Assembly: GCF_963664075.1 (NCBI RefSeq)
Contig: NZ_OY760916.1
Location: 2,048,001-2,112,000, forward strand
Origin: an uncultured Desulfobulbus sp.
GTDB taxonomy: Bacteria; Desulfobacterota; Desulfobulbia; Desulfobulbales; Desulfobulbaceae
DNA length: 64,000 nucleotides
Direction of reading: 5' to 3'
Below, piece after piece: positions 2,106 through 22,766 of the stretch (its first letter is position 1; each line of letters begins with the position of its first letter). A program made the translations under genes and the position numbers. A model generated the notes under the pieces. It saw only the letters and a list, made by a program, of their open reading frames with translations, did not search any database and was not told where the DNA came from.

Positions 2106-2330
2106 ATGGCTGGACAGATCTTTTATCGTGAACGACTCAAATCTCGGGATGGATCAAAATCACCCCGATATCGCATTGTCGCCATCAGTGGTGTTGATCT
2201 CAAGGTTTATGCAGACCATCTGCGCATGTCTGAACTCAAGCAGATGGCCTTGGCAACCAAGTCAGATCTTATCGCGCTCGAGCGTGGTCCCAAGCATCAG
2301 GCGGCACAACCTGAAACAGCAACAGCGTAA
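2106..2330 (+). CDS. Small unknown protein preceding the Mo/W storage subunit
   Basis: A 74-aa protein with a perfect AGGAGG ribosome site (2094-2099) seven bases before the ATG. It is basic and polar in the first half (FYRERLKSRDGSKSPRYRI), has a short hydrophobic stretch (IVAISGVDLKVYA) and ends in a Gln/Ala/Thr-rich tail. No signal peptide, membrane segment or metal-binding Cys/His motif is visible. I do not recognise the family. It lies only 20 bases before the MosB-like gene and is surely co-transcribed with it. It occupies the place where other bacteria have the second storage subunit, so a partner or chaperone role is possible, but this is inference. Confidence 0.75.
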   Translation: MAGQIFYRERLKSRDGSKSPRYRIVAISGVDLKVYADHLRMSELKQMALATKSDLIALERGPKHQAAQPETATA

Positions 2331-2350
2331 GAGGATCATAAGGGGCATAT

Positions 2351-3181
2351 ATGGCACTGGTACGGGAACAGGATGGCAAGCGGCTTCATGTTGAAAGTGC
2401 ACTCATGGGCGAAAGCCTGGTGAGTAAAGAATTTATCGAACAACTCGATATAGCTCCCCAGGAACGGTTGTATCCGGATATCGCCATCGTCAAGATAGGC
2501 GGACAATCTATCTGTGATCGCGGCGTGAAAGCCTTACCAGGTATTCTCAAAGAAATTGTGCGTAACCGAAAGGATCACAAAATCCTGATCACCACCGGTG
2601 GTGGTACCCGCAGCCGCCACATTTATACCATTGGCCTGGAAATGGGTATGCCCACCGGTGTAATTGCCAAGTTTGGAAGCATGATCTCCGAACAGAACGC
2701 CCTCATGGTCGCAACCTTGCTCTCCCCCTGGGGTGGTGTAAAGATATCGCATTCAGATATTGTAAAACTACCGACTTTTTTTGCGGAAAGTATTATTCCG
2801 GTCATGCATGGCATGCCACCCTATGATTACTTTGCCATCAAACCTAAGGTTGGCCGTATTCCGATCCACCGCACGGATGTTGGCCTGGTTATTCTCGCCG
2901 ATTTGATTGGCTCAAAGAATATCCTCTTCATCAAAGATGAGAACGGCCTTTACTCAGATGATCCAAAAAAGAATCCGGATGCCAGCTTTATTCCTGAAAT
3001 TGGCGCCCAGGATCTTCTGAACATGGACCAGGATGATCTGGTTATAGAGCGGCCATGTCTTGAAATTATCCAAAACTCTGAAGTCATCGAGAAGGTACAG
3101 ATCATTAATGGCATGGTTGAAGGAAATATCACTCGGGCACTTAACGGAGAACATGTAGGGACCTACATCTATAAGCAGTAA
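2351..3181 (+). CDS. mosB: MosB-like molybdenum/tungsten storage protein subunit
   Basis: A 276-aa protein of the amino-acid-kinase/UMP-kinase fold, the length of the Azotobacter MoSto subunits. It matches the beta (MosB) subunit at many sites: VKIGGQS with the phosphate-binding Lys48, an ITTGGGTRSRHIYTIG loop, HGMPPYD, IPIHRTD, FIKDENGLY and the C-terminal ALNGEHVGT. MoSto is a cytoplasmic cage that uses ATP to pack molybdate or tungstate as polyoxometalate clusters. Azotobacter has separate A and B subunits; only one is present here, so the cage may be a homomer or use a partner encoded elsewhere. Its position beside tungstate import and tungsten enzyme genes suggests tungsten storage. An alternative would be another member of the kinase family, but the MosB-specific motifs make this unlikely. 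Confidence 0.88.
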   Translation: MALVREQDGKRLHVESALMGESLVSKEFIEQLDIAPQERLYPDIAIVKIGGQSICDRGVKALPGILKEIVRNRKDHKILITTGGGTRSRHIYTIGLEMGMPTGVIAKFGSMISEQNALMVATLLSPWGGVKISHSDIVKLPTFFAESIIPVMHGMPPYDYFAIKPKVGRIPIHRTDVGLVILADLIGSKNILFIKDENGLYSDDPKKNPDASFIPEIGAQDLLNMDQDDLVIERPCLEIIQNSEVIEKVQIINGMVEGNITRALNGEHVGTYIYKQ

Positions 3182-3392
3182 ATTCTCAGCCAATTGTTTA
3201 AGCGTTCAAAGTACCAATGTGCTGGTTTTCGTCTTCACCTCACTGGAGAAAGATGGTAAACACAGTACATTGGTAATTTTTTATTAACGTAACCAGAATA
3301 TGTGAGTGTTCAACAGCGTGTTTATAAAAAGAATACCTTGAACAGCAATCCCTCCCTTCTCACGTATTCAGGCGCAACCCAAAGTTCAAACT

Positions 3393-3983
3393 ATGCCAAC
3401 TGCCACCACCTGCCCTTGCCTTGAACTTAAAATTTCCCCAGAAATGCTCACAGGCTTTGCTTCCCTGCTGCAGCACGGAGTGCTCTACCCCATAGAACGG
3501 CCAATCCCCCTGCTCTCTTTCCTGCTCAGCTTGCCTGGTTTTTCTGCTGAATATATTGAGAAGAACCTGCAGACCATCTTTATTAATGGTGTGGCGGCTG
3601 ACTCACTGACTCAAGAAATGATCGACGGAACAACCGTAGCCCTCTCTGCCGCCATGCCAGGACTTGCTGGCGCCATTTTTCGCCGCCAAGGCATCCATGG
3701 CAGCCTGCGCTCCAAACAGCTCAGTGATGAGGTTCACGAGACAACAGAGGGGGGATTTCTGACTCTGAAGTTTTTCAACTCCATCGCCCTGGATCGGGTG
3801 GAAGATCTATTGATGGGAGGCGTCCAGATTTCAGGAAAGGCACTGAGAAATTTTGCAAGCACGCGGGCTCATCTCTTTGAACCGCCAGTTGAACTGTTTT
3901 TAGATAGCGAAAAAATGAGTTACCCTGACGTATTGGACAAGGTAGAAGAACTCGAACTGCTGGAAGTTCGGCTGAAGAAGTGA
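3393..3983 (+). CDS. Unknown 196-aa protein of the metal island
   Basis: I do not recognise this family. The soluble protein has no signal peptide or membrane segment and no clear metal site beyond CPC near the N terminus. The centre (IFINGVAADSL, then DGTTVALSAAMPGLAGA) loosely resembles the closing strands of beta-grasp proteins such as MoaD/ThiS, but the chain continues about 100 residues beyond and has no terminal GlyGly. The C-terminal part is charged and possibly helical. It lies 211 bases after mosB on the same strand and converges on tupC, so it could belong to tungsten/molybdenum metabolism. No good ribosome site precedes the chosen ATG. Confidence 0.65.
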   Translation: MPTATTCPCLELKISPEMLTGFASLLQHGVLYPIERPIPLLSFLLSLPGFSAEYIEKNLQTIFINGVAADSLTQEMIDGTTVALSAAMPGLAGAIFRRQGIHGSLRSKQLSDEVHETTEGGFLTLKFFNSIALDRVEDLLMGGVQISGKALRNFASTRAHLFEPPVELFLDSEKMSYPDVLDKVEELELLEVRLKK

Positions 3984-4030
3984 AATGCAGGGGTGAAAGA
4001 GGACTCGGTGCCCCCAGCTAAGAACATTAG

Positions 4031-4076
4031 AAAGATGTGTTGTTCAGTGCCCACCCATCGTCACGGATTCAGGTTG
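4031..4076 (+). repeat. Partial copy of the dispersed GGATCCGTGA repeat
   Basis: The stretch beginning AAAGATGTGTTGTTCAGTG and ending near TCACGGATTCAGG matches the right half of the 225-bp element at 34606-34830 with only a few changes. It lies between the convergent ends of the 196-aa gene and tupC. No left half was seen. Confidence 0.65.
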
Positions 4077-4078
4077 AT

Positions 4079-5116
4079 TTAAGCTGATTTGGTCCAGGTG
4101 CAGGCCGTATCAGGAATGGACACGCAAACCTGGCTGCCAATTAAGGGGCGTTTCTGCGCGTACTCTTTTGTCTGCATAAGCACGACCATCAGCACACCGA
4201 CATCAACCACCACCCGTATATTCTTTCCCTCTTCCATCACCATAACCACTCTCCCCTCAAGAAGGTGACCTTTCTCTGATTGCTCATTCAAATCCGGGAC
4301 AATGACTATAGATTCTGGGTCGAGGGTCAGCCTACCACGACCTGCCTGCTTTCTTCCTCTAATTTTCTCTGAAAAACACAGCTCAACGACTCCGTGCAAA
4401 AGGAAACGATCTTTTCCGCTGGCCGTGGGCTCCAGGATAGAGGCATAAGAGTTTTCATAGGTTGTGTTTACCCGTCGTCCATTCTCCAGGACCAGGGTGT
4501 GTTGAGCCAGGGTAGCGGCCTGCAATCGATCGTGGGTTGTGAACACTATCGTGGTTTTCTGCTCCCGGTTAATAGCGCGTAACAGCTCCGTGATAACAGC
4601 CTGATTTTCCGCATCAACACTGGCTGTCGGCTCATCACAGAGCAGGACTTTGGGTTCAAGTGCCAGGGCCCGGGCAAGCGCCAGACGCTGGGTCTCTCCT
4701 CCAGAGAGGGCATCGGCACGGTCCTGTTTATAACGCGTGAGCCCCACAATTTCTAAGACTTCGTCAACTCTTCTCTCGCGGCTCGCCCCATCAATCTTTC
4801 TGATTTTTAGTCCAAATTCAATATTTGAGCGCACTGATGTGGAAAACATGATGGGGTGTTGATCTACCAGGACGACCTGCCTGCGCAGATGGAGAATATT
4901 CTTCTTGGTATAATCGATTAGCTCGCCCTGAAAATAAAGGGTTCCTGAGACCGGTGTTTCAAGAAAGGCGAGAATGTTCAAGAGGGTTGTTTTTCCCGCG
5001 CCATTAGGGCCGAGCAAAGCGTGAATAGCCCCTTGCTCAATACTGAGCTCATCAATATCAAGAACTGTCTTTTGAGAGAATCGTTGCTGGAGGCGTTGCA
5101 GCTGGTAGAGACTCAT
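4079..5116 (-). CDS. tupC: Tungstate ABC transporter, ATP-binding subunit
   Basis: 345-aa ATPase of an oxyanion importer. Visible are Walker A GPNGAGKTT (36-44), a Q-loop (VLVDQHP), signature LSGGETQRLALARALA, Walker B KVLLCDEPTA and the switch His (FTTHD). After about residue 225 an extra C-terminal region of some 110 residues, rich in beta-strand patterns (TLDPESIVIVPDL...), resembles the TOBE/MOP oxyanion-binding domain of ModC-type ATPases, which could give feedback inhibition by bound tungstate or molybdate. It overlaps tupB by four bases and is the last gene of the regulator-tupA-tupB-tupC order. Assignment to tungstate rests mainly on the tupA neighbour. Confidence 0.88.
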   Translation of the reverse strand: MSLYQLQRLQQRFSQKTVLDIDELSIEQGAIHALLGPNGAGKTTLLNILAFLETPVSGTLYFQGELIDYTKKNILHLRRQVVLVDQHPIMFSTSVRSNIEFGLKIRKIDGASRERRVDEVLEIVGLTRYKQDRADALSGGETQRLALARALALEPKVLLCDEPTASVDAENQAVITELLRAINREQKTTIVFTTHDRLQAATLAQHTLVLENGRRVNTTYENSYASILEPTASGKDRFLLHGVVELCFSEKIRGRKQAGRGRLTLDPESIVIVPDLNEQSEKGHLLEGRVVMVMEEGKNIRVVVDVGVLMVVLMQTKEYAQKRPLIGSQVCVSIPDTACTWTKSA

Positions 5117-5808
5117 CGGCTGCTCTTTCCTTGAATCAGGTTAAAGATAATATTTATTCCAAGACTCAGCGTCATAAGGACCACCCCAAGGGCAACGGCA
5201 AGAGTGAAAGATCCTTTATCATACTCCAGGGCCATGGCTGTGGTCATGGTGCGAGTAAAGCCCTTAATATTTCCACCGAGCATCATAGAGATGCCGATTT
5301 CAGAAATCACCCGGCCAAAAGCGGAGATAACAGCAGCACTTATGGCAAACCTTGCCTCACGCAGAATAACAAGCGCTGTCTGCCACCCATTCGCCCCCAA
5401 GGTCCGAGCTGTCTTCTGGTAACGGTCATCTACCCGGCTCACGGCCGCAATGGTCAACGCGGCAATAAGCGGCACAATCAAGATAAATTGGCCGATAACC
5501 ATGGCCTCCTGTGAATAGAGCAGGTCAAGGGGCCCCAAAATACCTCTGCGGGAAATAAAGACATAGACGAATAGACCGATGACGACCGTAGGCAGGGCCA
5601 AAAGCGTATTAAGGAGAGTGATAACCGCACGTTTTCCTGGCATCTGCGAGTGGGCTATCAAAAACCCTGTGGGAATTCCCACGAAAGAGGCCAGGACAGC
5701 GGCCATACTGCTCACCGAAAGGGTCACCTCAACAATCTTGAGCAGTTCCGCATCTCCGGAACCAATCAGGCGAAAGGCCGCAAAAAAGCTATCAACGAAA
5801 AAATTCAT
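5113..5808 (-). CDS. tupB: Tungstate ABC transporter, permease subunit
   Basis: 231-aa inner-membrane permease with about five or six hydrophobic segments and the permease coupling loop (EISEIGISMMLGGNIKGFTR) typical of TupB. I start at MNFFVDSFF (5808) instead of an upstream ATG at 5853, because that ATG sits inside the stem of an apparent transcription terminator (5822-5858). No strong ribosome site precedes either. It pairs with tupC (four-base overlap) and receives substrate from TupA. The terminator in front suggests that the permease and ATPase are made in smaller amounts than the binding protein. Confidence 0.88.
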   Translation of the reverse strand: MNFFVDSFFAAFRLIGSGDAELLKIVEVTLSVSSMAAVLASFVGIPTGFLIAHSQMPGKRAVITLLNTLLALPTVVIGLFVYVFISRRGILGPLDLLYSQEAMVIGQFILIVPLIAALTIAAVSRVDDRYQKTARTLGANGWQTALVILREARFAISAAVISAFGRVISEIGISMMLGGNIKGFTRTMTTAMALEYDKGSFTLAVALGVVLMTLSLGINIIFNLIQGKSSR

Positions 5809-5821
5809 GCAGTGTCTGGGC

Positions 5822-5858
5822 AAGAGAAAAAGGCGGATGCCAAAACCGGTCATCCGCC
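5822..5858 (-). terminator. Terminator/attenuator between tupA and tupB
   Basis: On the minus strand GGCGGATG (5858-5851) pairs with CATCCGCC (5839-5832), 11-base loop, directly followed by TTTTTCTCTT. This is a classical intrinsic terminator shape placed inside the tup operon, so it probably works as a partial stop that favours tupA over tupBC. Confidence 0.75.
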
Positions 5859-5927
5859 CTGATAAACAGCTCCTAAAAGCTCATGTCCCACTTGAAGGAT
5901 TACCTCGAGGGAGAGCACAGATGCATA

Positions 5928-6818
5928 TCACATCGCATCAGGAAAGAACAACTGGTTCCCCAGCAGTTTATAATCGGCGATGACCTTCTGCCCTTTGGGA
6001 GAAACCAGCCACTGGGCCATTTCCTCGCCAATGGCCTGTTTCACATGGGGATGTTTTTTCGCACTGACAGGAATGAATCCGTAGGGATTGGCAAGATTTT
6101 CACCGCCTTCGCAGAGGATATCAAGGCTGATCGGCACATCCCGACCGTGTTTGTACTTGATATAGGTACCACGATCAGTCATGGTGTAGGCCTGTTTTTC
6201 ATCGGCAATAGTCAAAGTTTTCCCCATCCCCTGGCCAACAGAGAGGTACCAGCTGGCACTGTCTTTGGGTTGAACAGACTTCACTTCACGTTGTTTGCCT
6301 TTTTTTGTAATAACAGCAACATTCTCTTCCAGAGCAACGCCGGAATCTTTCCACAGGGACTGTTCCTTTGAATGGGTACCCGAGTCATCACCACGTGAAA
6401 TAAAGGTGGCTTTGGCAGTGGCGATTTTTTTCATCGCTTCAGCACCACTCGTCGTTCCCTTGACACCAGCTTTGTCCGCTTCAGGTCCAATAATGACAAA
6501 ATCGTTATGCATGATTGCGTACCGTTTGGTGCCATACCCATCGGCAACGAACTTGGCTTCACGGTTTTTGTCATGGACGAAGATGACATCCACGTTGCCA
6601 TCAATGCCATCACGAATTGCCGCGCCGGTCCCCTTGGCAACCACCTTCACCTCAATGCCGGTATCCTTTTTCAAAGCGGGCAAAAGGACATCCAAAAGAC
6701 CAGAGGCCTGGGTTGAGGTGGTTGTAGACATCTTCAGCACCTTATCTTGGGCAAAACCGCTGCCAGCAATAAAGGGGGCCAAAAGCAAGCCGCAAACCAA
6801 CAGATTTTTCAACTTCAT
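5928..6818 (-). CDS. tupA: Tungstate-binding periplasmic protein
   Basis: 296-aa precursor with a clear signal peptide (MKLKNLLVCGLLLAPFIAGSG, cleavage about FA|QDK). The mature chain starts with the TupA hallmark STTTSTQASGLLDVLLPAL, followed by VVAKGTGAAIRDG, DVIFVHDKNREAKFV and MHNDFVIIGP, all typical of the TupA/WtpA-like group that binds tungstate with very high affinity. Start at 6818 is fixed by an AGGAGG site 8 bases upstream; a longer reading from 6848 would spoil the signal peptide. It is preceded by the regulator gene (48-base gap) and followed by a terminator-like hairpin. Tungstate over molybdate is the expected preference of the family, not something the sequence proves. Confidence 0.93.
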   Translation of the reverse strand: MKLKNLLVCGLLLAPFIAGSGFAQDKVLKMSTTTSTQASGLLDVLLPALKKDTGIEVKVVAKGTGAAIRDGIDGNVDVIFVHDKNREAKFVADGYGTKRYAIMHNDFVIIGPEADKAGVKGTTSGAEAMKKIATAKATFISRGDDSGTHSKEQSLWKDSGVALEENVAVITKKGKQREVKSVQPKDSASWYLSVGQGMGKTLTIADEKQAYTMTDRGTYIKYKHGRDVPISLDILCEGGENLANPYGFIPVSAKKHPHVKQAIGEEMAQWLVSPKGQKVIADYKLLGNQLFFPDAM

Positions 6819-6866
6819 ACAACGTTCCTCCTTTATGAATTCGGGCAAGACCTACTCCCTGCCCAG

Positions 6867-7784
6867 TTACTCCTCATTTCCTTCCTGGAAGACTATCTTG
6901 CCGGCAATGGATAAATCATATCCGGTCAGATCAGCGGCAGCTTCCTTAAAATCCTCGGATTGCAGTATACCAAAAAGGCTCTGGATGGATTTTTCAAAAA
7001 ATACTTTTTTGGAGACCAACAGGTCAAAACGTTCCCAACGAAGAGGCAAAAAGCCAAGATCTAAGGTGCGGGCTACAGTTTGAATACCTGGCCCAACATC
7101 AGCTCGCCCGGCAAGGATTTCAAGCCCCACATCCATATGCCGGGGTACTTCATGGGCATAGCCTTCGATTTTGTCCCCGCGAATACCTGCCTTCTGCAGC
7201 TCATGATCAATTAAGAGCCTTGTTCCTGTGCCCAGTGAACGGTTGACCATACGCAATCCGGGGGTACTTAAATCAGCGATAGTGGCAATATTATGGGGAT
7301 TATGCTTACGATAGAGCAACCCTTGCATGCGTCGACAGAAGTTGACGACAACGGGCATGTGTTCAAATTCCTGGGAGGCGTATTGGAAGTTATAATCGGC
7401 CTCGTCATCCTGAATGAGATGGCTGGCGGCTATATGGCAAAGATCGTTACGTAGCGCCTGAACCCCGCCCATGGAGCCGACATTGCCAAAAACAGCCAGA
7501 TGACCGCTATATGAACGATTGAACAAAGTAATTGTTTTGTCAAGTAAAGGATCATTGCTACCGGCCAAGACAATGAGCCGTTGATTTGAAGTAAGCGGGC
7601 GCACATTGCTTGGGAAGTTAATCGTGTTATTTTCTACCCACTGCTCAATCAAATATTGGGGAAACAGCCATTTTCCTGCAATCTTGGTCGCGGGCATCGA
7701 TTTTTCAGAAACCAGCGTGTACACCATCTTCTCATGGATATTGAGAAATTCGGCGACATCCTTCGTGGTCATCATGCGTTTCAT
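6867..7784 (-). CDS. Excisionase-type HTH regulator with PBP-like sensor domain
   Basis: 305-aa cytoplasmic protein. Residues 1-55 form an excisionase/MerR-like DNA-binding helix-turn-helix (TTKDVAEFLNIHEKMVYTLV... KWLFPQYLIEQWV). The rest is a PBP-like oxyanion-binding domain without signal peptide (GSMGGVQAL, HIAASHL, NRSLGTGTRLLIDHEL, DVGLEILAGRADVGPGIQ), the same domain type as at the end of the MoeA at 9183. I choose ATG 7784 because AAGGA lies upstream and the HTH starts at once. It is first in the tupABC gene order, so it likely senses tungstate or molybdate in the cytoplasm and controls the importer. It is not a ModE or the XerC-like TunR type. Direction of control is unknown. Confidence 0.85.
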   Translation of the reverse strand: MKRMMTTKDVAEFLNIHEKMVYTLVSEKSMPATKIAGKWLFPQYLIEQWVENNTINFPSNVRPLTSNQRLIVLAGSNDPLLDKTITLFNRSYSGHLAVFGNVGSMGGVQALRNDLCHIAASHLIQDDEADYNFQYASQEFEHMPVVVNFCRRMQGLLYRKHNPHNIATIADLSTPGLRMVNRSLGTGTRLLIDHELQKAGIRGDKIEGYAHEVPRHMDVGLEILAGRADVGPGIQTVARTLDLGFLPLRWERFDLLVSKKVFFEKSIQSLFGILQSEDFKEAAADLTGYDLSIAGKIVFQEGNEE

Positions 7785-7957
7785 GGTCAATCCTTGGAAA
7801 TTTGTTAAATCTTTATTTGGCATGACTACATGGTCACTGAAGTAGGTATTCGTCAATATAATTCATTTGATCGCAATCAATTTCCTACAAACCAACCAAA
7901 AACAACTATTATCTACACTTAGCTACCAAAAAAATACAAGCCTGAACCTTCATTTTT

Positions 7958-8395
7958 TTATTTCCACTCTCGTTTTTCCGGCCCTTCTAGAATCGACCAA
8001 TGACGATAACGCCGTGTCATGTGACTGCCAACACAACCGGAGATGAGAATAAGCCATAACAACGGTTTAATCATGGGCGTCAGCACATGAATTAGCAGGC
8101 AGAGTCCGACATGGACAAAAATACAGAGCCCCTTCCCCCGATGCCACCAACGATCATCGTGCATCCACTCAAAGAACATGAGCAGCAGCCCTGAAAAAAT
8201 GGTCAACCAGTGCCAGAGACCGAGCCTGCCATAGGGAACATCCAAAATACAACCGCCAAAGAGGATGGCCATGACAGCAATATGCACAGTTCGAGTGCTG
8301 ATATTCAACCAACGCATGGTGGATTGAGAACCAAAGACGATCGAATGCTCAGACTGTTGTTTTTGATTATCTGAGAGAGGGTTTGCCTTGTCCAT
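7958..8395 (-). CDS. Small four-helix membrane protein, unknown function
   Basis: 145-aa protein with a polar N-terminal 30 residues and about four membrane helices (STRTVHIAVMAILFGGCILD, LWHWLTIFSGLLLMFFEW, GLCIFVHVGLCLLIHVLTP, PLLWLILISGCVG). Several His residues in or near the helices (VHIAV, LWHWL, FVHVG, LIHVL) are the pattern seen in small b-type cytochrome or DUF4405-like proteins, but I cannot assign a family. It lies between the tup regulator and the divergent E1-like gene. A link to aldehyde or cofactor redox chemistry is only a guess. Confidence 0.65.
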   Translation of the reverse strand: MDKANPLSDNQKQQSEHSIVFGSQSTMRWLNISTRTVHIAVMAILFGGCILDVPYGRLGLWHWLTIFSGLLLMFFEWMHDDRWWHRGKGLCIFVHVGLCLLIHVLTPMIKPLLWLILISGCVGSHMTRRYRHWSILEGPEKREWK

Positions 8396-8458
8396 ATGCC
8401 ATTGGGATGGTTATAAGAAGGAACATCCAACTTCACCTATTCAATTGTTTTGTTCACT

Positions 8459-9148
8459 ATGCTCAATTTTGACGACTATTTTTCAAGAAACCTGGAGAGT
8501 ATTTCTCAAGACCAACTTGACCTACTCCAGCAAAAACGAGTGGCAGTAATCGGATGCGGTGGTTTAGGAGGATATGTGATTGAAGAGTTGGCCCGTATCG
8601 GTCTTGGCCAGTTCCACCTCTTTGACCCGGACACCTTTTCAGCGAGCAACTGCAACCGCCAACTCAATGCGCTCCTGGCGACCATGGGGGCGAAAAAAGC
8701 TGAGGTTGCGGCAAACCGTATCGCCTCCATCCATCCCTATTGCCGGGCCAGATCCTTTTGCGCTGACTTTCGAGATATCGATGAACAAATTGGATTTACC
8801 GTTGATTTGGTGGTGGACTGTCTGGATGATATTCCGGCCAGGCGCGATCTCTCACAACTCTGCAAGCGGCGCAACCTTCCCCTGGTCCACGGGTCCGTGA
8901 ATGGCTGGTACGGTCAGGTTGGGGTACAACTCCCTGAAGACAATCTGATAGATCAGCTCTACCCCGAACGAGGGAAACAAGCTCAACAACGCCCCGCCCC
9001 CTCTGTTCTCTCCTTTACAGTCGCCCTGGTCGCCTCTCTGCAGGCTGCCGAAGCCGTAAAAACCTTGCTCGGGATCGATTCGCCGTTGTACAGTGGCTGG
9101 CTCTATATCGATCTCAGGGAAAACGACTTTCTCTTCCATGAACTCTGA
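8459..9148 (+). CDS. MoeB/ThiF/HesA-family adenylyltransferase (E1-like)
   Basis: 229-aa E1-like enzyme expected to adenylate the C-terminal glycine of a MoaD/ThiS sulfur carrier. Seen: nucleotide-binding VAVIGCGGLGGYVIEELAR, the conserved FDPDTFSASNCNRQ arginine loop, MGAKKAEVAANRI and DCLDDIPAR. The CxxC zinc sites and the catalytic-Cys loop of classical MoeB/ThiF are missing: in their place is PERGKQAQQRPAPSVLSF. ATG 8459 is preferred to the in-frame TTG at 8450; no clear ribosome site is present. The natural partner is the MoaD encoded at 12785. It converges on the MoeA-PBP gene and diverges from the membrane protein gene. Confidence 0.85.
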   Translation: MLNFDDYFSRNLESISQDQLDLLQQKRVAVIGCGGLGGYVIEELARIGLGQFHLFDPDTFSASNCNRQLNALLATMGAKKAEVAANRIASIHPYCRARSFCADFRDIDEQIGFTVDLVVDCLDDIPARRDLSQLCKRRNLPLVHGSVNGWYGQVGVQLPEDNLIDQLYPERGKQAQQRPAPSVLSFTVALVASLQAAEAVKTLLGIDSPLYSGWLYIDLRENDFLFHEL

Positions 9149-9182
9149 AACCCACCCACCAGGGGCTACCCGCAGAGTCAGC

Positions 9183-11111
9183 TTATAGAGATGAAACGAG
9201 CTTACCAGTTTCTCTGGTCGAATAACCTCCCAGTGCTTCAACCCTCTCTTGAAACCTCCTGCTTGTGATGACCTCAAGCGCAGCTTGAATCATAGGGGAT
9301 TCAAAGAATTGGCCCGGAATCAGCAAGTCATAGCGTTCCTCCAAAAGGGGGACAAAATCAAGCCCCAAGGCTTTGGCCGCACTCTTAATCCCCAGGCCCA
9401 CATCAACTTTATTTGCCAGCACCGCTACGGCAACGGCCATGTGGGTGTATTCATCATTTTCATATCCGAGGATATCATCGGGATCGAGCCCCTGACGGTC
9501 CAACTCATAGTCCAGAAGGACCCGGGTTCCTGAGCCGGCCTGGCGGTTTATAAACTGAACATCTTTATTAAAGAGGTCATGAATGGTCTTGATGCCTTTG
9601 GGGTTGCCTGGACGGACCATGAACCCCTGCTCCCTATGCACCAGGGTGACGACACGGATATCTTTATCTGCAAGGTGTTTCTGCACATAACTGGTGTTAT
9701 ACGACCCATCTTTGGGGTCGAGCAGATGGGACCCGGCCATGTGACACATCCCCTGCTTGAGCGCCATGATACCCCCCAGACTGCCCACATGGGTAGAGGC
9801 CAGAGTAAACGAAGGTTTCCGCTGGCGCAGGAGATCATTCAACAAATCAAGACAGAGATCATGGCTGCCCGTCGAAAGAATGGTGCGCTCTATCTGGGGC
9901 AAGGGGTGCAGCAGGTCTATTTCCATAAGCTGCCCGGCCTTCTCCCCCTCAGAGGCGGCATCTATGCGGAGAATGCTGTTGGCCCGGGTCAGGGTGGTAA
10001 TTGTACCGGACCCCTGCTTCAGAGGGACGGCGACAAAACCAACGCCAATACGCCCAACTATCATCCGCCTAAACTCTTCGATTCCTGCCCGCGAGGGGAG
10101 ATCCTTGGCAAGAGTCGCCTTGATCATAACAGGTGGTTCCAAATATATGCCTTGGATCTGGGCCAAAAGGGGCATAACCAGCTGCTCCATAGCGATAATA
10201 GCGGAGACAGGGTACCCAGGGAGACCAACCACGGGCTTGTTGTTGATCACAGCGAGAATAGTTGGTTTCCCGGGCATGATGGTGACTCCATGGACCAGCA
10301 CCTCACCGAGTTCTTCAACGATGCGGACGGTATAGTCAGCACTGCCAGCTGAGGACCCCGCGTTGATAATCACCATATCGGCATCAGAATTGACCATTTC
10401 AAGTAGGTGCGCCTTAATCCCCTCATAGTCATCCTTGAGAATAGGGCTAATCTGGGCAACCCCACCTGCCTTTTTCACGAGTCCGTTGAGCACGCCGGAA
10501 TTCGATTCGACGGTCTTGCCTGAGGGAATAGTATCAGGGTAATCCCCCAGGTTCACCAGCTCGTTTCCTGTGGGAATAATGCGTACCTGAGGTTTTTTGC
10601 GCACTTCTACAGTGGGGATACCGGCAGCGAGCAAGGCGCCGATATCCGGAGCGCGAAAGCGATGTCCTGTGGTAAAAAGAAGTTCTGTGGCAACGATATC
10701 TTCTCCAACCTTACGTACATGCTGCCAGGGGTAAACCGGGGCGCGAATAATACCCTCCTTACCATCACTGCTCAAAAGAACGTTTTCAATCATGATGACC
10801 GCATTTTTGTCCTCAGGGAGAGGAAATCCGGTATTGATCAGCTGTGCCTGCCCACTTTCGACATTGAGGGTTTTGGGCGATTCATCACTGGCGCCAAAGG
10901 TTTCCTCAGCCTGTACGGCAAGACCATCCATAGCGGCAGAATGAAAGGAAGGGGCAGAAAAACGCGCAAAAATCGGAGCTGCTGAAACGCGCTCAAAGGC
11001 GTCTCGCGAAGTAATGGTCTCTGTGCCGAGAGTATAGGAGGCAAACCTGGACCAGAAAACCCGTTGCGCCTCCTCCCGTGTCTGCATGTTCAAATACATT
11101 TTACGCTGCAT
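9183..11111 (-). CDS. moeA: MoeA molybdenum/tungsten insertase fused to PBP-like domain
   Basis: 642 residues against about 400 for MoeA. Residues 1-410 hold the insertase: FSAPSFHSAAMDGLAV, IPTGNELV, INAGSSAGSADYT, VLVHGVTIMPGKPTILAVI and GLPGYPVSAIIAM. From about 425 to 640 follows a PBP-like domain (HVGSLGGIMALKQGMCHMAG, NRQAGSGTRVLLDYEL, VLANKVDVGLGIKSAAKALG) closely like that of the regulator at 6867. MoeA inserts molybdate or tungstate into adenylated molybdopterin; the extra domain could present or sense the oxyanion. AAGGAG precedes the ATG. It is 18 bases behind the second moeA and ends the aor-moaD-moeA-moeA order. SAGSADYT replaces the more common SVGDYD/SVGxxD-type loop. Confidence 0.92.
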   Translation of the reverse strand: MQRKMYLNMQTREEAQRVFWSRFASYTLGTETITSRDAFERVSAAPIFARFSAPSFHSAAMDGLAVQAEETFGASDESPKTLNVESGQAQLINTGFPLPEDKNAVIMIENVLLSSDGKEGIIRAPVYPWQHVRKVGEDIVATELLFTTGHRFRAPDIGALLAAGIPTVEVRKKPQVRIIPTGNELVNLGDYPDTIPSGKTVESNSGVLNGLVKKAGGVAQISPILKDDYEGIKAHLLEMVNSDADMVIINAGSSAGSADYTVRIVEELGEVLVHGVTIMPGKPTILAVINNKPVVGLPGYPVSAIIAMEQLVMPLLAQIQGIYLEPPVMIKATLAKDLPSRAGIEEFRRMIVGRIGVGFVAVPLKQGSGTITTLTRANSILRIDAASEGEKAGQLMEIDLLHPLPQIERTILSTGSHDLCLDLLNDLLRQRKPSFTLASTHVGSLGGIMALKQGMCHMAGSHLLDPKDGSYNTSYVQKHLADKDIRVVTLVHREQGFMVRPGNPKGIKTIHDLFNKDVQFINRQAGSGTRVLLDYELDRQGLDPDDILGYENDEYTHMAVAVAVLANKVDVGLGIKSAAKALGLDFVPLLEERYDLLIPGQFFESPMIQAALEVITSRRFQERVEALGGYSTRETGKLVSSL

Positions 11112-11129
11112 ACTCGACTCCTTTACAGC

Positions 11130-12371
11130 TCAGGCTGCGGGAAAAAGAAGAACTGTACAGGGGGTTCCATGATCAAGGCCCTCAACATCACGACCAATGG
11201 GTAAAAGACCGTCAGCTCGAACGAGTGGGCTGAGGAGCCCTGATTTCCCGTAAACGGGCACAGCTTGCAGAGGTTTACCTTCTTCCTGCAGCAGGCGAAC
11301 GCGTACATATTCCTGACGTCCGATGGCTGAAGGAATGGGTTGCGCAGTTATGGCCTCAACCGACTGCAGACCAAGGGTGGCCCCCAGACCAGAAAAACGA
11401 CGAATAAGCGGGCGAACAAAACAGGTAAAAATAACCAGTGCCGAGGCAACGTGGCCAGGTAGCCCGAGCATGGCCTTATTTCCTTGCCGGGCAAGAATGG
11501 TCGGTTTTCCAGGACGTACCGAAACCCCGTGCACCAGTAACTCACTTTCAGGAATAGCTTCAAAGACCCGTTTGGTAAAATCACGTTTGCCCACTGAACT
11601 GCCCCCTGAAAGCAGGAGCATGTCAGCTTCTGCAAGGGCCTTGCTGCAACGGGCCAGCATTTCGTCAAAATCATCACCACAAATACCAAGCGGCACGGGA
11701 ATGCCACCAGCCTCTTCGACCATGGCCATCAACGTGGCTGAGTTGATATCGCGAATCTTTCCCGGAGGGGGAATCTGATCCGTGGGGACCAATTCATCAC
11801 CGGTGGAGAGAATGGCTACCTTGGGTTTGCGATACACCGGTACTTGATTCATGCCAAGACCAGAGAGCACACCAAGGTCCTGAGGACGGAGCGAACGTCC
11901 CTGATCGAGAATGACACTCCCTGGCTGATAGTCTTCACCGGCCTGGGTAACATTCTCCCCCGGGGCAACAGGGCGAAAGACCGCAACCGTTTCTTCATCA
12001 AAGGCTTGGGTATATTCAACCATGACCACGGCATCGGCTTTCTGTGGCAGCTCGCCTCCGGTCCAGATGCGTACCGCCTGGCCAGCCTTGAGTGTATAGG
12101 TCTGGCCCGTGGTCCCCATGGCGATTTCACCAACAATGGTCAAAAGAGCGGTCTCGGAATCTGAGCAGCCAAAGGTATCAGCTGCGCGAACAGCAAAACC
12201 ATCCATGGTGGATCTGGAAAAAGGGGGAAGGAGCTCCTTGCTGACCTGCTGCTCAGCAAGAATGCGTCCACGGGCCTCAGCAATCGGGATTATTTGCTGA
12301 TCAAGGGGGGAGAATTCATCAAAAAGGGCAATGAATTCTGCGGGACTCATCAGTTTAAAAAAATCGTTCAT
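11130..12371 (-). CDS. moeA: MoeA molybdopterin molybdenum/tungsten insertase
   Basis: 413-aa stand-alone MoeA. Motifs include PPFSRSTMDGFAVRAADTFG, AILSTGDELV, LLSGGSSVGKRDFT, LVHGVSVRPGKPTILAR and LGLPGHVASALVIF, so all four domains are complete. It catalyses the last step of the cofactor pathway, ligating the oxyanion to the pterin dithiolene. Start is supported by AAAGGAAC upstream. A second MoeA, fused to a sensor domain, follows at 18 bases. Organisms that use both metals often keep two MoeA copies with different metal preference; which one serves tungsten here cannot be told. A structured RNA and a sigma54-like promoter lie upstream. Confidence 0.93.
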   Translation of the reverse strand: MNDFFKLMSPAEFIALFDEFSPLDQQIIPIAEARGRILAEQQVSKELLPPFSRSTMDGFAVRAADTFGCSDSETALLTIVGEIAMGTTGQTYTLKAGQAVRIWTGGELPQKADAVVMVEYTQAFDEETVAVFRPVAPGENVTQAGEDYQPGSVILDQGRSLRPQDLGVLSGLGMNQVPVYRKPKVAILSTGDELVPTDQIPPPGKIRDINSATLMAMVEEAGGIPVPLGICGDDFDEMLARCSKALAEADMLLLSGGSSVGKRDFTKRVFEAIPESELLVHGVSVRPGKPTILARQGNKAMLGLPGHVASALVIFTCFVRPLIRRFSGLGATLGLQSVEAITAQPIPSAIGRQEYVRVRLLQEEGKPLQAVPVYGKSGLLSPLVRADGLLPIGRDVEGLDHGTPCTVLLFPAA

Positions 12372-12500
12372 AGTTCCTTTCCAGAGCTAAACCTTGGACA
12401 AACGATAGAGACAATAGGAATTGAATGCTTTACCGTACTGTCTGGCATCAGTTTTCTTTAAAGTCAAAAAAAGAGGACTGAAAGCAAATATATAAATTAC

Positions 12501-12634
12501 CTGAGTCAGGCAAACAGCCGAGACTGCACTCGAGGCTTCCCAGACGGACAGCCTTGAGGGAGTGAGCAGGGTGGCTGAGAGAAACGCAACACTTTCCGAG
12601 GAAAGTTCGGCGGCGTTGCCGCGACAGACACTGT
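12501..12634 (-). ncRNA. Structured leader RNA upstream of moeA (candidate Moco/Tuco-type riboswitch)
   Basis: Read on the minus strand, the segment contains several stable stems: GCGGC-AAC-GCCGC, ACTTTCC-TC-GGAAAGT, a closing GCAAC/GTTGC pair around that hairpin, CAGCC/GGCTG, and a 3' stem with CGAG/CTCG. It also has unpaired-looking CTCCC and GGGAAGCC blocks. It ends about 130 bases before the moeA start. Position between moaD and moeA in a cofactor operon is what is known for molybdenum-cofactor (and tungsten-cofactor variant) RNAs, but I cannot align it with the family consensus from memory, so the class is inference. That it is structured is far safer. Confidence 0.5.
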
Positions 12635-12667
12635 GAACTTTTGGTCTATTTATTACAGAACCCAATC

Positions 12668-12686
12668 GAGCAGGCCTGTAGCCAAA
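12668..12686 (-). promoter_or_regulatory. Sigma54-like promoter upstream of moeA
   Basis: The minus strand reads TTGGCTACAGGCCTGCTC, with GG and GC separated by exactly ten bases as in -24/-12 promoters (consensus TTGGCAC...TTGCW). Transcription would start just before the structured RNA. The match at -24 and -12 is imperfect. Confidence 0.35.
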
Positions 12687-12784
12687 ATCCACTTTGCTGT
12701 CATGGTGCAACTATACCACGGAAAGCAGGTTTCAGAGGAGAGGAAAGTCTCTGGCAGGGAGTGGTTGTAACAGAGGACGGTTAA

Positions 12785-13009
12785 TCAACCGCCACCAATG
12801 TTGGGAAAGATGGCGACCTGGTCGCCTTCCACCGGCACCTGCTTCAAGGCACAGTGCCGTGAATTGATCATGAGCACACCAAGCTCATCTAGAGGTATCC
12901 CTAGGGAAACAATGATATCTTCAACAGTGGTGTCGTTGGGAAACTCCATCTGCTGTACCTTAAAGCGGTTATCCCGAAAATAAGCAAAGAGTTTGACCGT
13001 CAGTTGCAT
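12785..13009 (-). CDS. moaD: MoaD/ThiS-family sulfur carrier protein
   Basis: 74-aa beta-grasp protein (MQLTVKLFAYFRDNRF ... VEGDQVAIFPNIGGG) ending in glycines, the hallmark of MoaD, whose C-terminal GlyGly is adenylated by a MoeB-type E1 and then carries the thiocarboxylate sulfur that builds the dithiolene. It lies between aor and the moeA pair on the same strand, about 130 bases after aor. The E1 is probably the protein at 8459. No MoaE is present in the window, so the pair may serve tungstopterin synthesis together with a MoaE encoded elsewhere. No strong ribosome site is visible. Confidence 0.85.
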   Translation of the reverse strand: MQLTVKLFAYFRDNRFKVQQMEFPNDTTVEDIIVSLGIPLDELGVLMINSRHCALKQVPVEGDQVAIFPNIGGG

Positions 13010-13082
13010 AGGAGCCTGTCTATGAAAAAGTGAAAAAATATTTCCACGAAAAAACGTGGCGCAAAGCTCTCATCCTAAAATA

Positions 13083-13114
13083 CAGCCCCTCATCGAATAC
13101 TCGATGAGGGGCTG
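13083..13114 (-). terminator. Hairpin after aor
   Basis: CAGCCCCTCATCGA and TCGATGAGGGGCTG form a perfect 14-bp stem with a four-base loop, 29 bases after the aor stop. On the minus strand it is followed by TATTTTAGG, a weak T-run, so it may only partly terminate, letting some transcripts reach moaD and moeA. It may also protect the aor mRNA end. Confidence 0.7.
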
Positions 13115-13142
13115 GAGATAAAGCAAAAAGACCGCGTAGGGC

Positions 13143-14873
13143 TTAGAAATCCCAGAAGGAATCGATAGCCTCGTCTGTAATATCCCAGACAACATTGTGC
13201 GGTGCAATGGGCTCTTTAGCAAAGAACTCAGGCAGACGGTCATCTTTATTGGTGAAACCGGCAGCCAGGTTGAATGCATGCTCGGTTTTGAGGATATATT
13301 GTCCAAGGCTGACAACATCATCACCTGTCAGGCCGATACCGAAGCGAGCGTTGATCAGATCGATCAATGCAGGCAGGCAGGTGGCATCGTCAAGAGCAGC
13401 AAAGGCGATGAACAGACACATACCGGTGGAGTCGATCGCGGCGGTCGCAATCTGCAGGTTACGGGAAAGCTCGACCTGACCTTCTTTGGACAGCGGATCA
13501 AGGGAACCACCGACACCAAGGATGTTGGTGGCAATGGTGTAACCCATGGTATGATCTGCCCCCTGGGTGGATGTCGCGTAGGTGATACCAATACCTTTGA
13601 TCGCACGCGGGTCGTAGGCAGGAATCGCCTGATTTTTAACGACAGGTACACGGGTTACGCCGTAGGCCCTACCGACAGAACCGGCACCGTTACCGATGAT
13701 GCGTCCCAGAGGGGTGCCTTTGGCAACTTCCTCGTTCAGGGTGCGAATAACGCCTTCACCGTCACCAAACTCAAGCACACCGGCTTCCATTGCCACTGCA
13801 AAGGCTACAGGAATCTCGATGGAGTCAAGGCCGAGGTCATCGAGGATGTTGTCTGCTTCGGCGATGTGATCAAGGTTCTCGATGCAGCAGTCTGCACCAA
13901 AGGCCCAGATGGTCTCATACTCGAAACCAGAGGTTTTGTAGCCACCTTTAGCATCTGCGTAGACCTGAGAGCATTGAATAACACAACCGGCATGGCAGTT
14001 ATGTTTAGGTTTTCCACCACGGGCAACGATGGTGTCGTACATGGTTTCACCGGAGATAGACTCATGGCCTTCGAACTGACCGGTGGTGAAGTTTTTGGTG
14101 GGGATACCACCAGACTCGTTGATAATATTAACGAGAACGTTTGTTCCGTACTGACCGAGTGCCTGGCTGATGGGGTTATCGACAAGTGCTTTGGCGAAAG
14201 CGCGGTTGGCTGCTTTAAATGCCTCGGGATCAGCGATCTCAACCTTGTTGGTGGTGGGCTCGATGGAAATAAATTTGATTTTTTTGGAGCCCATAACCGC
14301 ACCCAGACCACCACGGCCACTGGAGCGCATATGACTGTCAGGGTCTTTGACAGAGATGTTAGCTGCAGTCATCAGCATCTCACCGGCAGGCCCGATGGTA
14401 ATCACACCAACTTTAGCCCCAAGACGCTCGTTGAGTTTCTGTACTGTCTCAAAGTTACCCAACCCGATAACTTCGGTCTCTTCTTTGACGGTGGCACCAT
14501 TTTCATCAACATGGATGCTGTACCATTTAGAGGCATCCGCAGGCTTGCCTTCTAAAATCATGGCTTTTACACCAAGTTTAGCCAACATCTGAGCAGACGT
14601 ACCACCGGCATTTGCCTCTTTAATGGTGCCGGTGAGCGGGCTTTTTGCACCACAGGAAAGACGCCCGGAGTTTGCTGCCGGTGTACCGGAAAGCAAACCA
14701 GGTGCAATCACCAGTTTATTATCTTCTCCAAGCGGGTGACAGGTCGGAACCACTTCTGCCGCAACGATGGTGGAAGTAAGACCGCGACCGCCGTGCCCCA
14801 TCCAGGCTTCAGGAACATCTTCGACCTTGGTACTGAGGTCCGACATGTTAATGCGTAAAATTTTATCAGCCAT
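13143..14873 (-). CDS. aor: Tungsten-containing aldehyde ferredoxin oxidoreductase
   Basis: 576-aa enzyme of the AOR family, cytoplasmic, oxidising aldehydes to acids with reduction of ferredoxin through a tungsten bis-pterin and one [4Fe-4S] cluster. The N-terminal domain has GGRGLTSTIVAAEVVPTCHP and SGRLSCGAKSPLTG; the pterin-binding loop SSGRGGLGAVMGSKKIKF is at 185-202. Cluster ligands are Cys293, Cys297, Cys301 and a late Cys486. The first gap is CxxxC, not the CxxC of the Pyrococcus enzyme. Neighbours are adh upstream and moaD/moeA downstream, fitting ethanol > acetaldehyde > acetate. It has its own sigma70-like promoter and a trailing hairpin. Exact aldehyde substrate is unknown. Confidence 0.94.
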   Translation of the reverse strand: MADKILRINMSDLSTKVEDVPEAWMGHGGRGLTSTIVAAEVVPTCHPLGEDNKLVIAPGLLSGTPAANSGRLSCGAKSPLTGTIKEANAGGTSAQMLAKLGVKAMILEGKPADASKWYSIHVDENGATVKEETEVIGLGNFETVQKLNERLGAKVGVITIGPAGEMLMTAANISVKDPDSHMRSSGRGGLGAVMGSKKIKFISIEPTTNKVEIADPEAFKAANRAFAKALVDNPISQALGQYGTNVLVNIINESGGIPTKNFTTGQFEGHESISGETMYDTIVARGGKPKHNCHAGCVIQCSQVYADAKGGYKTSGFEYETIWAFGADCCIENLDHIAEADNILDDLGLDSIEIPVAFAVAMEAGVLEFGDGEGVIRTLNEEVAKGTPLGRIIGNGAGSVGRAYGVTRVPVVKNQAIPAYDPRAIKGIGITYATSTQGADHTMGYTIATNILGVGGSLDPLSKEGQVELSRNLQIATAAIDSTGMCLFIAFAALDDATCLPALIDLINARFGIGLTGDDVVSLGQYILKTEHAFNLAAGFTNKDDRLPEFFAKEPIAPHNVVWDITDEAIDSFWDF

Positions 14874-14992
14874 TCTCGTAAACTCCTATCTTAATAAAAA
14901 GAGGAACCGGGCATTTAGGGCCCCGTACCCGTAATTGTCGACGGTATGGGTCTTGAAACAAAATCAGCAGTAATTCAACGAGTTGTCGGGAC

Positions 14993-15021
14993 AGAGTAGC
15001 GCGAGTTCATCGCCTTGTCAA
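14993..15021 (-). promoter_or_regulatory. Sigma70-like promoter of aor
   Basis: Minus strand TTGACA (15021-15016), 17-base spacer, TACTCT (14998-14993). The -35 box is perfect and the spacing ideal. The leader of about 110 bases contains a GC-rich hairpin-forming stretch (GGTACGGGGCCC). Confidence 0.6.
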
Positions 15022-15350
15022 CACTTGTAGGTATTGGTAATTACAGGTAAGTTTTAGGAATCAAGGCACAGGAACACAAGGAGTAAAGCCCCTGCGCCTC
15101 TCATCCAATTGCTTCGCTGTCAAAACGCGGGACGCGTTCTCGCGTCCCGCAACGCCAACCACAGCGTAACTCGTACAAAGGCCGGTGAAGCCCGCACAGG
15201 CCAAGTTCAGGGATAACAGGGGCAGGCTCCACCAGCATTTCTTAGGTCAATACTTGTATGAACCAGTCGTATCGGAGAGGGGTAGAATGACTGGTAGCAC
15301 AAAAAACTAACCTGAAAATTTTCAACGGTAAGTGAATGAGCAGGGCATAT

Positions 15351-15384
15351 CAGGGGGATGGTGAAGGGCGTCTCCATCCCCCTG
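15351..15384 (-). terminator. Hairpin after adh
   Basis: CAGGGGGATGG (15351-15361) pairs perfectly with CCATCCCCCTG (15374-15384), 12-base loop, 34 bases after the adh stop. No T-run follows on the minus strand, so termination may be weak or the hairpin may protect mRNA. Confidence 0.5.
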
Positions 15385-15418
15385 ATTGTCCATTATAGCA
15401 GGTAATTCAAACTACTGA

Positions 15419-16600
15419 TTACAGAGCAGAGGTGTAGATAGCTGCTACATCTGCATCTTTCGGGCGACGCGGATTGGTCAGACCACAAGCGTCTTTCTGA
15501 GCATTGGCCACCATGGTGTCGATATCGGAAGCCTTAACCTCTTTACCGTAGCGTTTACCCAGCTCGATAAGACCGGCAGGAATACCGATGTCGGAGGAAA
15601 GTTTTTTGATGGCTTCCAGAGCGAGCTCAGCAGCATCACGCGGAGACAGACCTTCAGTGTTCTCCCCCATGAGCTGAGCGATTTTGACGAAACGGTCGAT
15701 CTTAGCGATCAGGTTGAACTTCTCTACATGGGGCAGGAGAATGGCGTTGCACTCACCGTGGGGCAGGTCATAGAAACCACCCAGCTGATGTGCCATGGCA
15801 TGTACGTGACCGAGGCTGGCGTTGTTGAATGCCATACCAGCAAGATACTGAGCGTAGCACATACCCTCACGAGCAACGATGTCTGCGCCATTGGCAACGG
15901 CAGGACGCAGGTGCTCAGCGATCAGCTCGATGGCTTTCTCGGCAGCAGAGTCGGTCATCGGGGTAGCAGCGGTGGAAACAAAAGCCTCAACAGCGTGGGT
16001 CAGTGCGTCCATACCGGTAGCAGCGGTCAGTGCCGGCGGCATACCAACCATCAACTCAGGATCATCTACTGCGATACCCGGGGTTACACGCCAGTCAACG
16101 ATGGCCATCTTCACGTGACGAGCCAGGTCGGTGATAATACAGAAGCGTGTCATCTCAGAAGCTGTACCAGCGGTGGTGTTCACTGCCAGGTAAGGAGGCA
16201 TGGGATTGGAAGATTTGTCCACACCCTCGAAATCCTGGATTTTACCGCCGTTAGCAACAACAAGGCCAACACCTTTACCACAGTCATGGGAGGAACCGCC
16301 GCCCAGGGTGATCAGAGAGTCGCAACCTTCTTTTTTGTAGATATCAACGCCGTCGTGAACGTTTTTATCGGTGGGATTGGGGATTGTTTCGTCATAGACA
16401 ACATAACCCATGCCGGCTGCATCCAGCAGATCGGTTATAACTTTGGTGATGCCAGCGCCGGTGATTCCTTTATCAGTAACGATCAACGGTTTGGAACCGC
16501 CAAGCGCTTTGATTTTAGCAGGAATCTGTTTGGATGCACCAATACCGATCAGGGTTACTGAAGGAATAAAATAACCGTATACTTCTTCACGAACTGCCAT
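15419..16600 (-). CDS. adh: Iron-containing (type III) alcohol dehydrogenase
   Basis: 393-aa NAD-dependent Fe-alcohol dehydrogenase. The N-terminal nucleotide-binding half shows LIVTDKGITGAG, NPTDKNVHDGVD and ITLGGGSSHDCGKG; the C-terminal metal-binding half shows the family signature NNASLGHVHAMAHQLGG and LPHGECNAILLPHV with the His ligands. It likely oxidises ethanol or another primary alcohol to the aldehyde used by the neighbouring AOR, a pairing known from ethanol-oxidising sulfate reducers and Pelobacter. The start follows AAAAAGGATGG. It is transcribed alone from a sigma54-like promoter and separated from aor by 545 bases, so the two can be controlled differently. Confidence 0.94.
   Translation of the reverse strand: MAVREEVYGYFIPSVTLIGIGASKQIPAKIKALGGSKPLIVTDKGITGAGITKVITDLLDAAGMGYVVYDETIPNPTDKNVHDGVDIYKKEGCDSLITLGGGSSHDCGKGVGLVVANGGKIQDFEGVDKSSNPMPPYLAVNTTAGTASEMTRFCIITDLARHVKMAIVDWRVTPGIAVDDPELMVGMPPALTAATGMDALTHAVEAFVSTAATPMTDSAAEKAIELIAEHLRPAVANGADIVAREGMCYAQYLAGMAFNNASLGHVHAMAHQLGGFYDLPHGECNAILLPHVEKFNLIAKIDRFVKIAQLMGENTEGLSPRDAAELALEAIKKLSSDIGIPAGLIELGKRYGKEVKASDIDTMVANAQKDACGLTNPRRPKDADVAAIYTSAL

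Positions 16601-21987: not shown

Positions 21988-22766
<779 letters not shown>

Follow-up and report, generated by a model that had tools for sequence, protein, structure and literature searches.

Background

The closest described relative of the storage gene considered here is the molybdenum-storage protein (MoSto) of Azotobacter vinelandii, which is made of the subunits MosA and MosB and which, in a 2019 paper (PMC6448029), is stated to be without known homologues in protein databases. Clusters devoted to the use of tungsten have been described from several sides: published work reports Class I WOR enzymes with WorX and ThiF, TupABC and two MoeA proteins (PMC13328260), MoaD-like putative maturation genes adjoining a gene for an aldehyde oxidoreductase (AOR) (PMC6365974), a linkage of moeA with tup (PMC13197769), and the TaoR regulator with HTH and PBP-like domains, credited there to Rajeev et al. 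2019 (PMC11980592). In this work we analyze a stretch of 64,000 nucleotides (hereafter the window) that comprises bases 2048001-2112000 of the single-contig, 4.78 Mb genome of an uncultured Desulfobulbus sp., and in which genes of both kinds stand side by side. A preliminary description of this DNA had seen in the genes between positions 2106 and 16600 what looked like a complete system that imports, stores, senses, inserts and uses tungsten (or molybdenum). The genes it named were all found there, with the expected family matches, and their combination in one place is real: a congener (G521) has the entire island, orf74-mosB-orf196 included, with the same gene order, and tupA lies near the storage gene mosB more often than expected by chance. 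The new part of the island is its storage end, namely a single-subunit MoSto gene, a near-universal small partner (orf74) and an associate with a predicted TiaS fold (ddtd); the core is mostly of a known kind.

Results and discussion

A single-subunit lineage of MoSto homologues

The storage gene, mosB (2351..3181, plus strand), encodes a member of the AA_kinase family whose best match in the PDB is the beta chain of MoSto (2ogx_B, E 2e-65), followed by the alpha chain (E 5e-44), with an alignment that covers residues 13-273 and thus indicates a whole-length relationship to MosA and MosB. The window genome contains one MoSto match at E 1e-20 and no alpha partner, instead of the two subunit genes of an alpha3beta3 assembly. 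At the same threshold, MoSto was found in 26 of 395 genomes of the phylum, as a single gene in 22 and as paired mosAB in four. The single proteins fall into two types, 62-72% and 47-49% identical to the window protein; on one contig (L087:7184-10241) both types occur together, with an orf74 beside each. In a quick tree the single proteins form one group (SH-aLRT 84), which stands next to the paired beta subunits (91) and apart from the paired alpha subunits (97), although this single-type group is moderately supported and the tree program flagged long branches coming together. Judged from its sequence, we assign the storage gene to a lineage of single-subunit MoSto proteins that belongs with the beta subunits, a placement to which the phylogeny lends moderate support.

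The GMPPY motif, which aligns with Met149 of A. vinelandii MosB (numbering taken from the PDB alignment of mosB), is retained in all 16 window-type single proteins. At the Met149 position itself, reported to be the gate residue (Bruenle et al. 2019), Met is present in 16/16 window-type singles and in 4/4 paired beta subunits, and Ile or Val in 6/6 proteins of the other single type. Among the loci listed, the nearest named relative is that of Desulfobulbus rhabdoformis DSM 8777, whose MosB is 98% identical, with 1.3 kb of shared DNA identical at 85%. A literature search on molybdenum storage in organisms with Desulfo- names returned a match only for the unrelated store Tub.

It could be argued that the MoSto homologue is a kinase or a regulator of the same fold rather than a store, given that its superfamily is that of the amino acid kinases and that the literature searched, in the parts available, has yielded no storage assay of the single-subunit type. 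We regard this as improbable: the similarity to UMP and isopentenyl phosphate kinases is far weaker than that to MoSto (E 1e-7 at best, vs 2e-65), and the neighbours of mosB include genes of molybdenum and tungsten metabolism.

A small gene that accompanies the single-subunit MoSto homologue

Directly upstream of mosB lies orf74 (2106..2330, plus strand), which encodes a protein of 74 amino acids and represents a new family; neither it nor the product of orf196 (see below) has a match in Pfam (up to E 10), NCBIfam or PHROGs. When the same 395 genomes were searched with a profile, orf74 turned up in 24, comprising all 22 genomes with a single MoSto, none of the four with paired mosAB, and two of the 369 others (Fisher's test, 4e-34), and its homologues adjoin every single MoSto gene in the phylum sample. 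We also collected a neighbourhood set of 101 loci, in which the best 80 of 520 relatives (the 80 named loci, leaning to close ones) are complemented by the phylum sample's 21 further loci with a single MoSto; removal of nine loci with mosB DNA identical to another left 92 distinct single-MoSto loci. Within this set orf74 occurs at most 2 kb from mosB in 89 loci, in 83 of them upstream on the same strand (with a median of 67 bases between the matches) and in six downstream on the opposite strand. In two of the three loci without it, L108 and L137, the contig is cut 290 and 5 bases, respectively, before mosB. Among the MosB loci of the order, orf74 is present in 16/16. According to the record titles, loci that combine orf74 with mosB occur in sulfate reducers, other Deltaproteobacteria, Synergistota, Coriobacteriia, a metagenome-assembled genome (MAG) of Spirochaetes, and Sporomusa ovata, where the labels of MAGs may be wrong.

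Since the dN/dS of orf74 is low (0.08 and 0.02 against two relatives) and its homologues stand beside mosB in nearly all distinct loci, orf74 is a genuine conserved gene under purifying selection. The suspicion of the preliminary description that the gene at 2106 is a new part has therefore been borne out: it is tied to the storage gene both across genomes and across loci. Among 71 sequences M1, F6, R8, P20, H38 and A48 are invariant, and G3, I5, Y7, E9, R10, R21, A26, R40, E43, L44, A53 (Ser in the window protein), L55 and L58 are nearly so. The structure predicted for orf74, with moderate confidence (pLDDT 72), is beta-beta-alpha-beta; no fold in the PDB matches the model at an E value of 0.001 or lower, and a profile search gave chance matches alone, the best of them (0.54) to a TiaS chain. 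The idea that orf74 is itself a store of the TOBE/Mop/Tub kind was rejected, as TOBE is absent and there is no Pfam match up to E 10.

A TiaS-like protein and the TonB-ECF operon

The second associate of the storage gene, ddtd, is located outside the window (C1:2043903-2044625 of the genome) and is named after the invariant DDTD motif of its product, which is about 240 residues long. Pfam yields nothing above chance level for this protein, and it is neither of full TiaS length nor near the curated TiaS score (31 bits against a cut-off of 600). A relative from another genome (L114) could be modelled well (pLDDT 89); this predicted model matches the catalytic fold of TiaS (PDB 5xob, E 1e-9), and its best structural match, 4rvz (6e-10), is titled as a tRNA labelling enzyme. 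We extend the TiaS-like fold to ddtd as a prediction made on this relative. In the phylum ddtd occurs in 30/395 genomes, which include 21 of the 22 with a single MoSto, none of the four with the paired form and nine of the 369 others (p 8e-27), and, where 2.5 kb or more of upstream sequence is present around orf74-mosB, 43 of 74 loci contain it within 2.5 kb.

In the window genome a distance of 5.7 kb separates mosB from ddtd, which is located upstream and closes an apparent operon that runs divergently from orf74-mosB. The operon starts with a gene for a TonB-dependent receptor, the 5' part of which occupies 1..1330 of the window (minus strand, the rest lying beyond the window edge), and continues with a fused ATPase-ATPase-T component of an energy-coupling factor (ECF) transporter, a 184-residue membrane protein taken for the ECF S component, and ddtd. 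The best family matches of the receptor are to BtuB (B12) and heme receptors, below the cut-off. The island was thus drawn too short when it was made to begin at 2106, as the system continues upstream into this operon. The literature searched contained no joint mention of energy-coupling factor, TonB and tungsten.

This arrangement raises the question of whether orf74 and ddtd belong to the TonB-ECF uptake of another compound and merely neighbour MoSto. Nine genomes have ddtd and no MosB; in six of these ddtd lies among genes for a TonB receptor, an ECF transporter and an ECF S component, in a seventh with a TonB receptor, and in the remaining two near a contig end, with neither TonB nor ECF genes seen. 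Moreover, in one genome lacking MosB (G273) orf74 itself is found between ddtd and an ECF transporter, and the receptor resembles, if weakly, those for B12 and heme. On the other hand, orf74 is close to mosB in 89 of 92 loci, whereas TonB receptor matches occur in only 3/105 loci mapped around the MoSto genes of relatives (L051, L084 and L089), and several loci have ddtd immediately after a tup gene (L037, L049, L102, L103 and L140). In addition, a distant homologue of orf74 in a genome with no MoSto match (G167; L168:1720-1968) is encoded directly upstream of genes with MoaA, MoaC, MOSC and MoCF_biosynth domains. We therefore consider uptake of another compound an unlikely explanation. Because orf74 occurs in G167 and G273 without MoSto, a role with the oxyanion itself is likelier than one that requires the cage.

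A TonB receptor-ECF-ECF S-TiaS-like neighbourhood conserved in genomes without MoSto can be seen at L167, L200, L201, L203, L204 and L205.

Genome-wide counts of nifD, TupA and WOR were made on 80 hand-chosen genomes (26 with MosB, nine with ddtd only, and 45 others, including six close relatives). WOR was found in 30/30 genomes with ddtd and in 38/50 without it (p 0.003, kinship ignored); we judge this enrichment to be weak, as without the six hand-picked relatives the latter count becomes 36/44 (p 0.02).

The tungsten-use core

Downstream of the store, the genes tupC (ABC ATPase, 4079..5116), tupB (permease, 5113..5853) and tupA (5928..6848) are encoded together on the minus strand. TupA is homologous to solved tungstate-binding proteins (3lr1, E 3e-68), with scores below the NCBIfam equivalog cut-offs (242 vs 400 bits for TupA); by homology we regard TupABC as a tungstate importer, with a predicted selectivity over molybdate. 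The adjacent regulator (6867..7856, minus strand) combines HTH_17 with PBP_like domains, which is the architecture of TaoR (PMC11980592). It is followed by mem145 (7958..8395, minus), a ThiF/MoeB-like E1 enzyme (8450..9148, plus), a MoeA fused to a PBP_like oxyanion-binding domain (9183..11111, minus; NF011068, 723 bits), a second MoeA (11130..12371, minus), and a MoaD/ThiS-like protein of the WorX/AorD type with a C-terminal GG (12785..13009, minus). Thus adh, aor-moaD, the two moeA genes and mem145-regulator-tupABC are all on the minus strand, and thiF lies between them on the plus strand.

The oxidoreductase (13143..14873, minus) is the sole PF01314 match in the window genome (E 1e-20). It contains both AFOR domains (PF02730 and PF01314) in one large subunit, has no adjoining small-subunit gene, and has WorX and ThiF nearby, in agreement with the layout of WOR Class I; the presence of tungsten in its active site is predicted from the family. 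In the alignment its cysteines are spaced C-x3-C-x3-C, and those of Pyrococcus AOR (1aor) C-x2-C-x3-C. An iron-containing alcohol dehydrogenase (Fe-ADH; adh, 15419..16600, minus) completes the island.

The core was compared with 20 stretches around AOR genes of the window type from 19 genomes of the order, several of which end at contig breaks, by mapping the window genes onto them. Among these loci moaD occurs in 15, thiF in 12, a close ADH (at least 77% identity) in 11, the MoeA fusion in ten, orf196 in seven, tupA in five, the regulator in four, mem145 in two and mosB in one. The tup-regulator-thiF-moeA-moeA-moaD-aor-adh core is also found in other genera of the order. Since its parts recur in this way, the core of the island is a known type of tungsten-use cluster. 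Within the genus, AOR was found in 7/16 sampled genomes, one of the copies being just 40% identical, and of the five congeners in which TupA was looked for, one has TupA as well as WOR and four have neither.

Two other genes had been proposed as new parts. The first, orf196 (3393..3983, plus strand), encodes an uncharacterized conserved protein and follows mosB on the 3' side in the window, in D. rhabdoformis and in G521; in the window the two are separated by a terminator-like stem-loop with a T run (3207..3282, plus strand), the sequence of which is conserved in D. rhabdoformis. Six of its seven AOR loci have no mosB, and among the other six orf196 loci in the order five have it near aor, moaD or thiF, and one (L255) has it where a tup-aor cluster ends with tup. 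The best PDB match (E 0.03) was taken as chance. Because orf196 recurs near these genes without mosB, a function with the oxidoreductase or its cofactor appears likelier than one in storage. The second, the membrane protein mem145, is present as proposed, but both of its AOR loci are from the genus; its Pfam matches are weak and all below the cut-off (best 0.053).

As for regulation, sigma-54-type -24/-12 elements precede the TonB receptor operon (1452..1467, minus) and adh (16690..16705, minus), and both have counterparts in G521. With a third match at 22418-22433 there are three in 64 kb vs 0.44 expected, and 2/100 shuffles reach as many. An Rfam scan of the window gave no match at the gathering score, and riboswitch control was dropped from consideration. 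Beyond the island, a creatinase/M24 peptidase-like frame (17406-18368, minus) overlaps a second short frame (17228-17455), and the two may represent one frameshifted gene.

A possible mechanism and the identity of the stored metal

We consider it probable that the island combines an ATP-driven homomeric store for tungsten or molybdenum, equipped with a dedicated small partner, with an attached tungsten-use cluster. Judging from the gene families, TupABC would import tungstate and the TaoR-type regulator would sense it; ThiF and the MoaD-like protein would serve the cofactor, into which the MoeA proteins, one of them fused to an oxyanion-binding domain, would insert the metal; and the pair of Fe-ADH and oxidoreductase would convert alcohol to acid, giving reduced ferredoxin. 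In the homomeric MoSto, one beta-side subunit would replace the alpha and beta subunits of Azotobacter and, at the expense of ATP, would accumulate tungstate and/or molybdate inside a protein cage. The roles we infer for the two associates are as follows. The product of orf74, as the dedicated partner of mosB, would most likely bind the oxyanion or polynuclear clusters via R8, E9, R10, R21, H38, R40 and E43, and could help in loading, nucleation or hand-over to MoeA. The TiaS-fold ddtd, probably an ATP-using enzyme, would be a looser third partner, which also travels with the TonB receptor and ECF importer.

It is tempting to go further and regard these loci as an undescribed form of oxyanion storage, in which a homomeric MoSto cage needs a near-universal partner of about 70 residues with a new fold and a TiaS-like ATP enzyme, and which occurs in several phyla and is supplied by different importers, including a TonB-ECF system that would possibly be the first for tungsten or molybdenum; we put this forward tentatively, as a possibility that falls somewhat short of an even chance.

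Several observations weigh against the store as we picture it, in addition to the modest support for the single-type group mentioned above. L136 is a genuine exception, with MosB and no orf74 beside it, and two genomes that have orf74, G273 and G167, show no match to MosB. No operator shared across the island promoters emerged when 19 upstream stretches from two genomes were scanned in a simple way for k-mers and palindromes. The biochemistry that we favour is wholly one that we infer. MosB and the window-type AOR occur together in 15 genomes of the order, and are linked only in the window genome and one congener; for the remaining 13, the places listed for the two genes are separated by 44 kb or more or belong to separate contigs, although contig breaks could hide a link. 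Calling the system complete was therefore an overstatement, and the search for the same neighbourhood in relatives had a mixed outcome: the core recurs in other genera of the order, but its link to mosB was seen only in the two congeners.

This sparse linkage also feeds the most serious competing explanation, according to which the store serves molybdenum, for nitrogenase and molybdoenzymes as in Azotobacter, and the proximity of the tungsten genes is incidental. The window genome encodes nifD, three ModA-type matches and six PF00384 molybdopterin-enzyme matches, and in the loci of seven relatives (L064, L066, L069, L072, L073, L077 and L090) mosB has a gene for a MOT1-type molybdate transporter at a distance of 37 to 1404 bases. 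Because of these features the stored metal may be molybdenum, and tungsten, which the preliminary description had put first, is less securely named as the stored metal. However, nifD is present in only 2/22 genomes with a single MoSto, and hence nitrogenase is not the general client; the ascription of the protein to nitrogen fixers fits the window genome but not most of the lineage in the phylum sample. A tie between MoSto and nitrogen fixation in the phylum sample was rejected (nifD in 2/22 vs 15/58 others, p 0.13). Furthermore, tupA lies at most 10 kb from mosB in 21 of the 92 distinct loci, where about 0.5 would be expected on the assumption of 1.5 TupA per 3.7 Mb; MosB tracks the window-type AOR in the order (15/16 genomes with MosB vs 52/177 others, p 5e-7, kinship ignored); and a WOR-family match, found in 68 of the 80 hand-chosen genomes, is present in all 22 with a single MoSto, though in 46 of the 58 others too. 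A store for molybdenum with incidental tungsten neighbours thus appears to us the less likely reading, at roughly one chance in three, and the stored metal may differ by lineage.

Whichever metal it holds, a single-subunit MoSto lineage exists in many bacteria, and in the phylum 20 of its 22 genomes are without nitrogenase. It may offer a simpler system in which to study how metal oxyanions are pumped into a protein cage and set free again, and in what way anaerobes retain scarce tungsten for their oxidoreductases, and it suggests a testable role for two families that have no Pfam model, orf74 and ddtd.

Comparison with known systems

With MosA/MosB of A. vinelandii (PDB 2OGX) the storage protein shares the family, the amino acid kinase fold, a full-length match that is nearer to beta, and the GMPPY position; it differs in being encoded by one gene, in having a small partner beside nearly every copy, and in occurring mostly in genomes that lack nifD. 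The Tub/Mop/TOBE oxyanion stores (PMC11980592) are unrelated proteins and represent a functional analogue, in that they store tungstate for WOR enzymes. Compared with the catalytic fold of TiaS (tRNA-Ile2 agmatinylcytidine synthetase), which is common to the model of the ddtd relative, ddtd is much shorter (about 240 residues vs 417 in 5xob) and scores far below the TiaS cut-off. The core resembles the WOR Class I clusters (PMC13328260) in its single large-subunit AOR, the ThiS-like WorX and ThiF nearby, and TupABC, and the two MoeA proteins have a parallel in the genome of Cetobacterium somerae (same source). Unlike those clusters, it has an adjoining Fe-ADH, a TaoR-type regulator, orf196 and a MoSto gene. 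The TaoR-type regulator shares with the TaoR family the HTH_17 plus PBP-like architecture and the position beside tup and aor.

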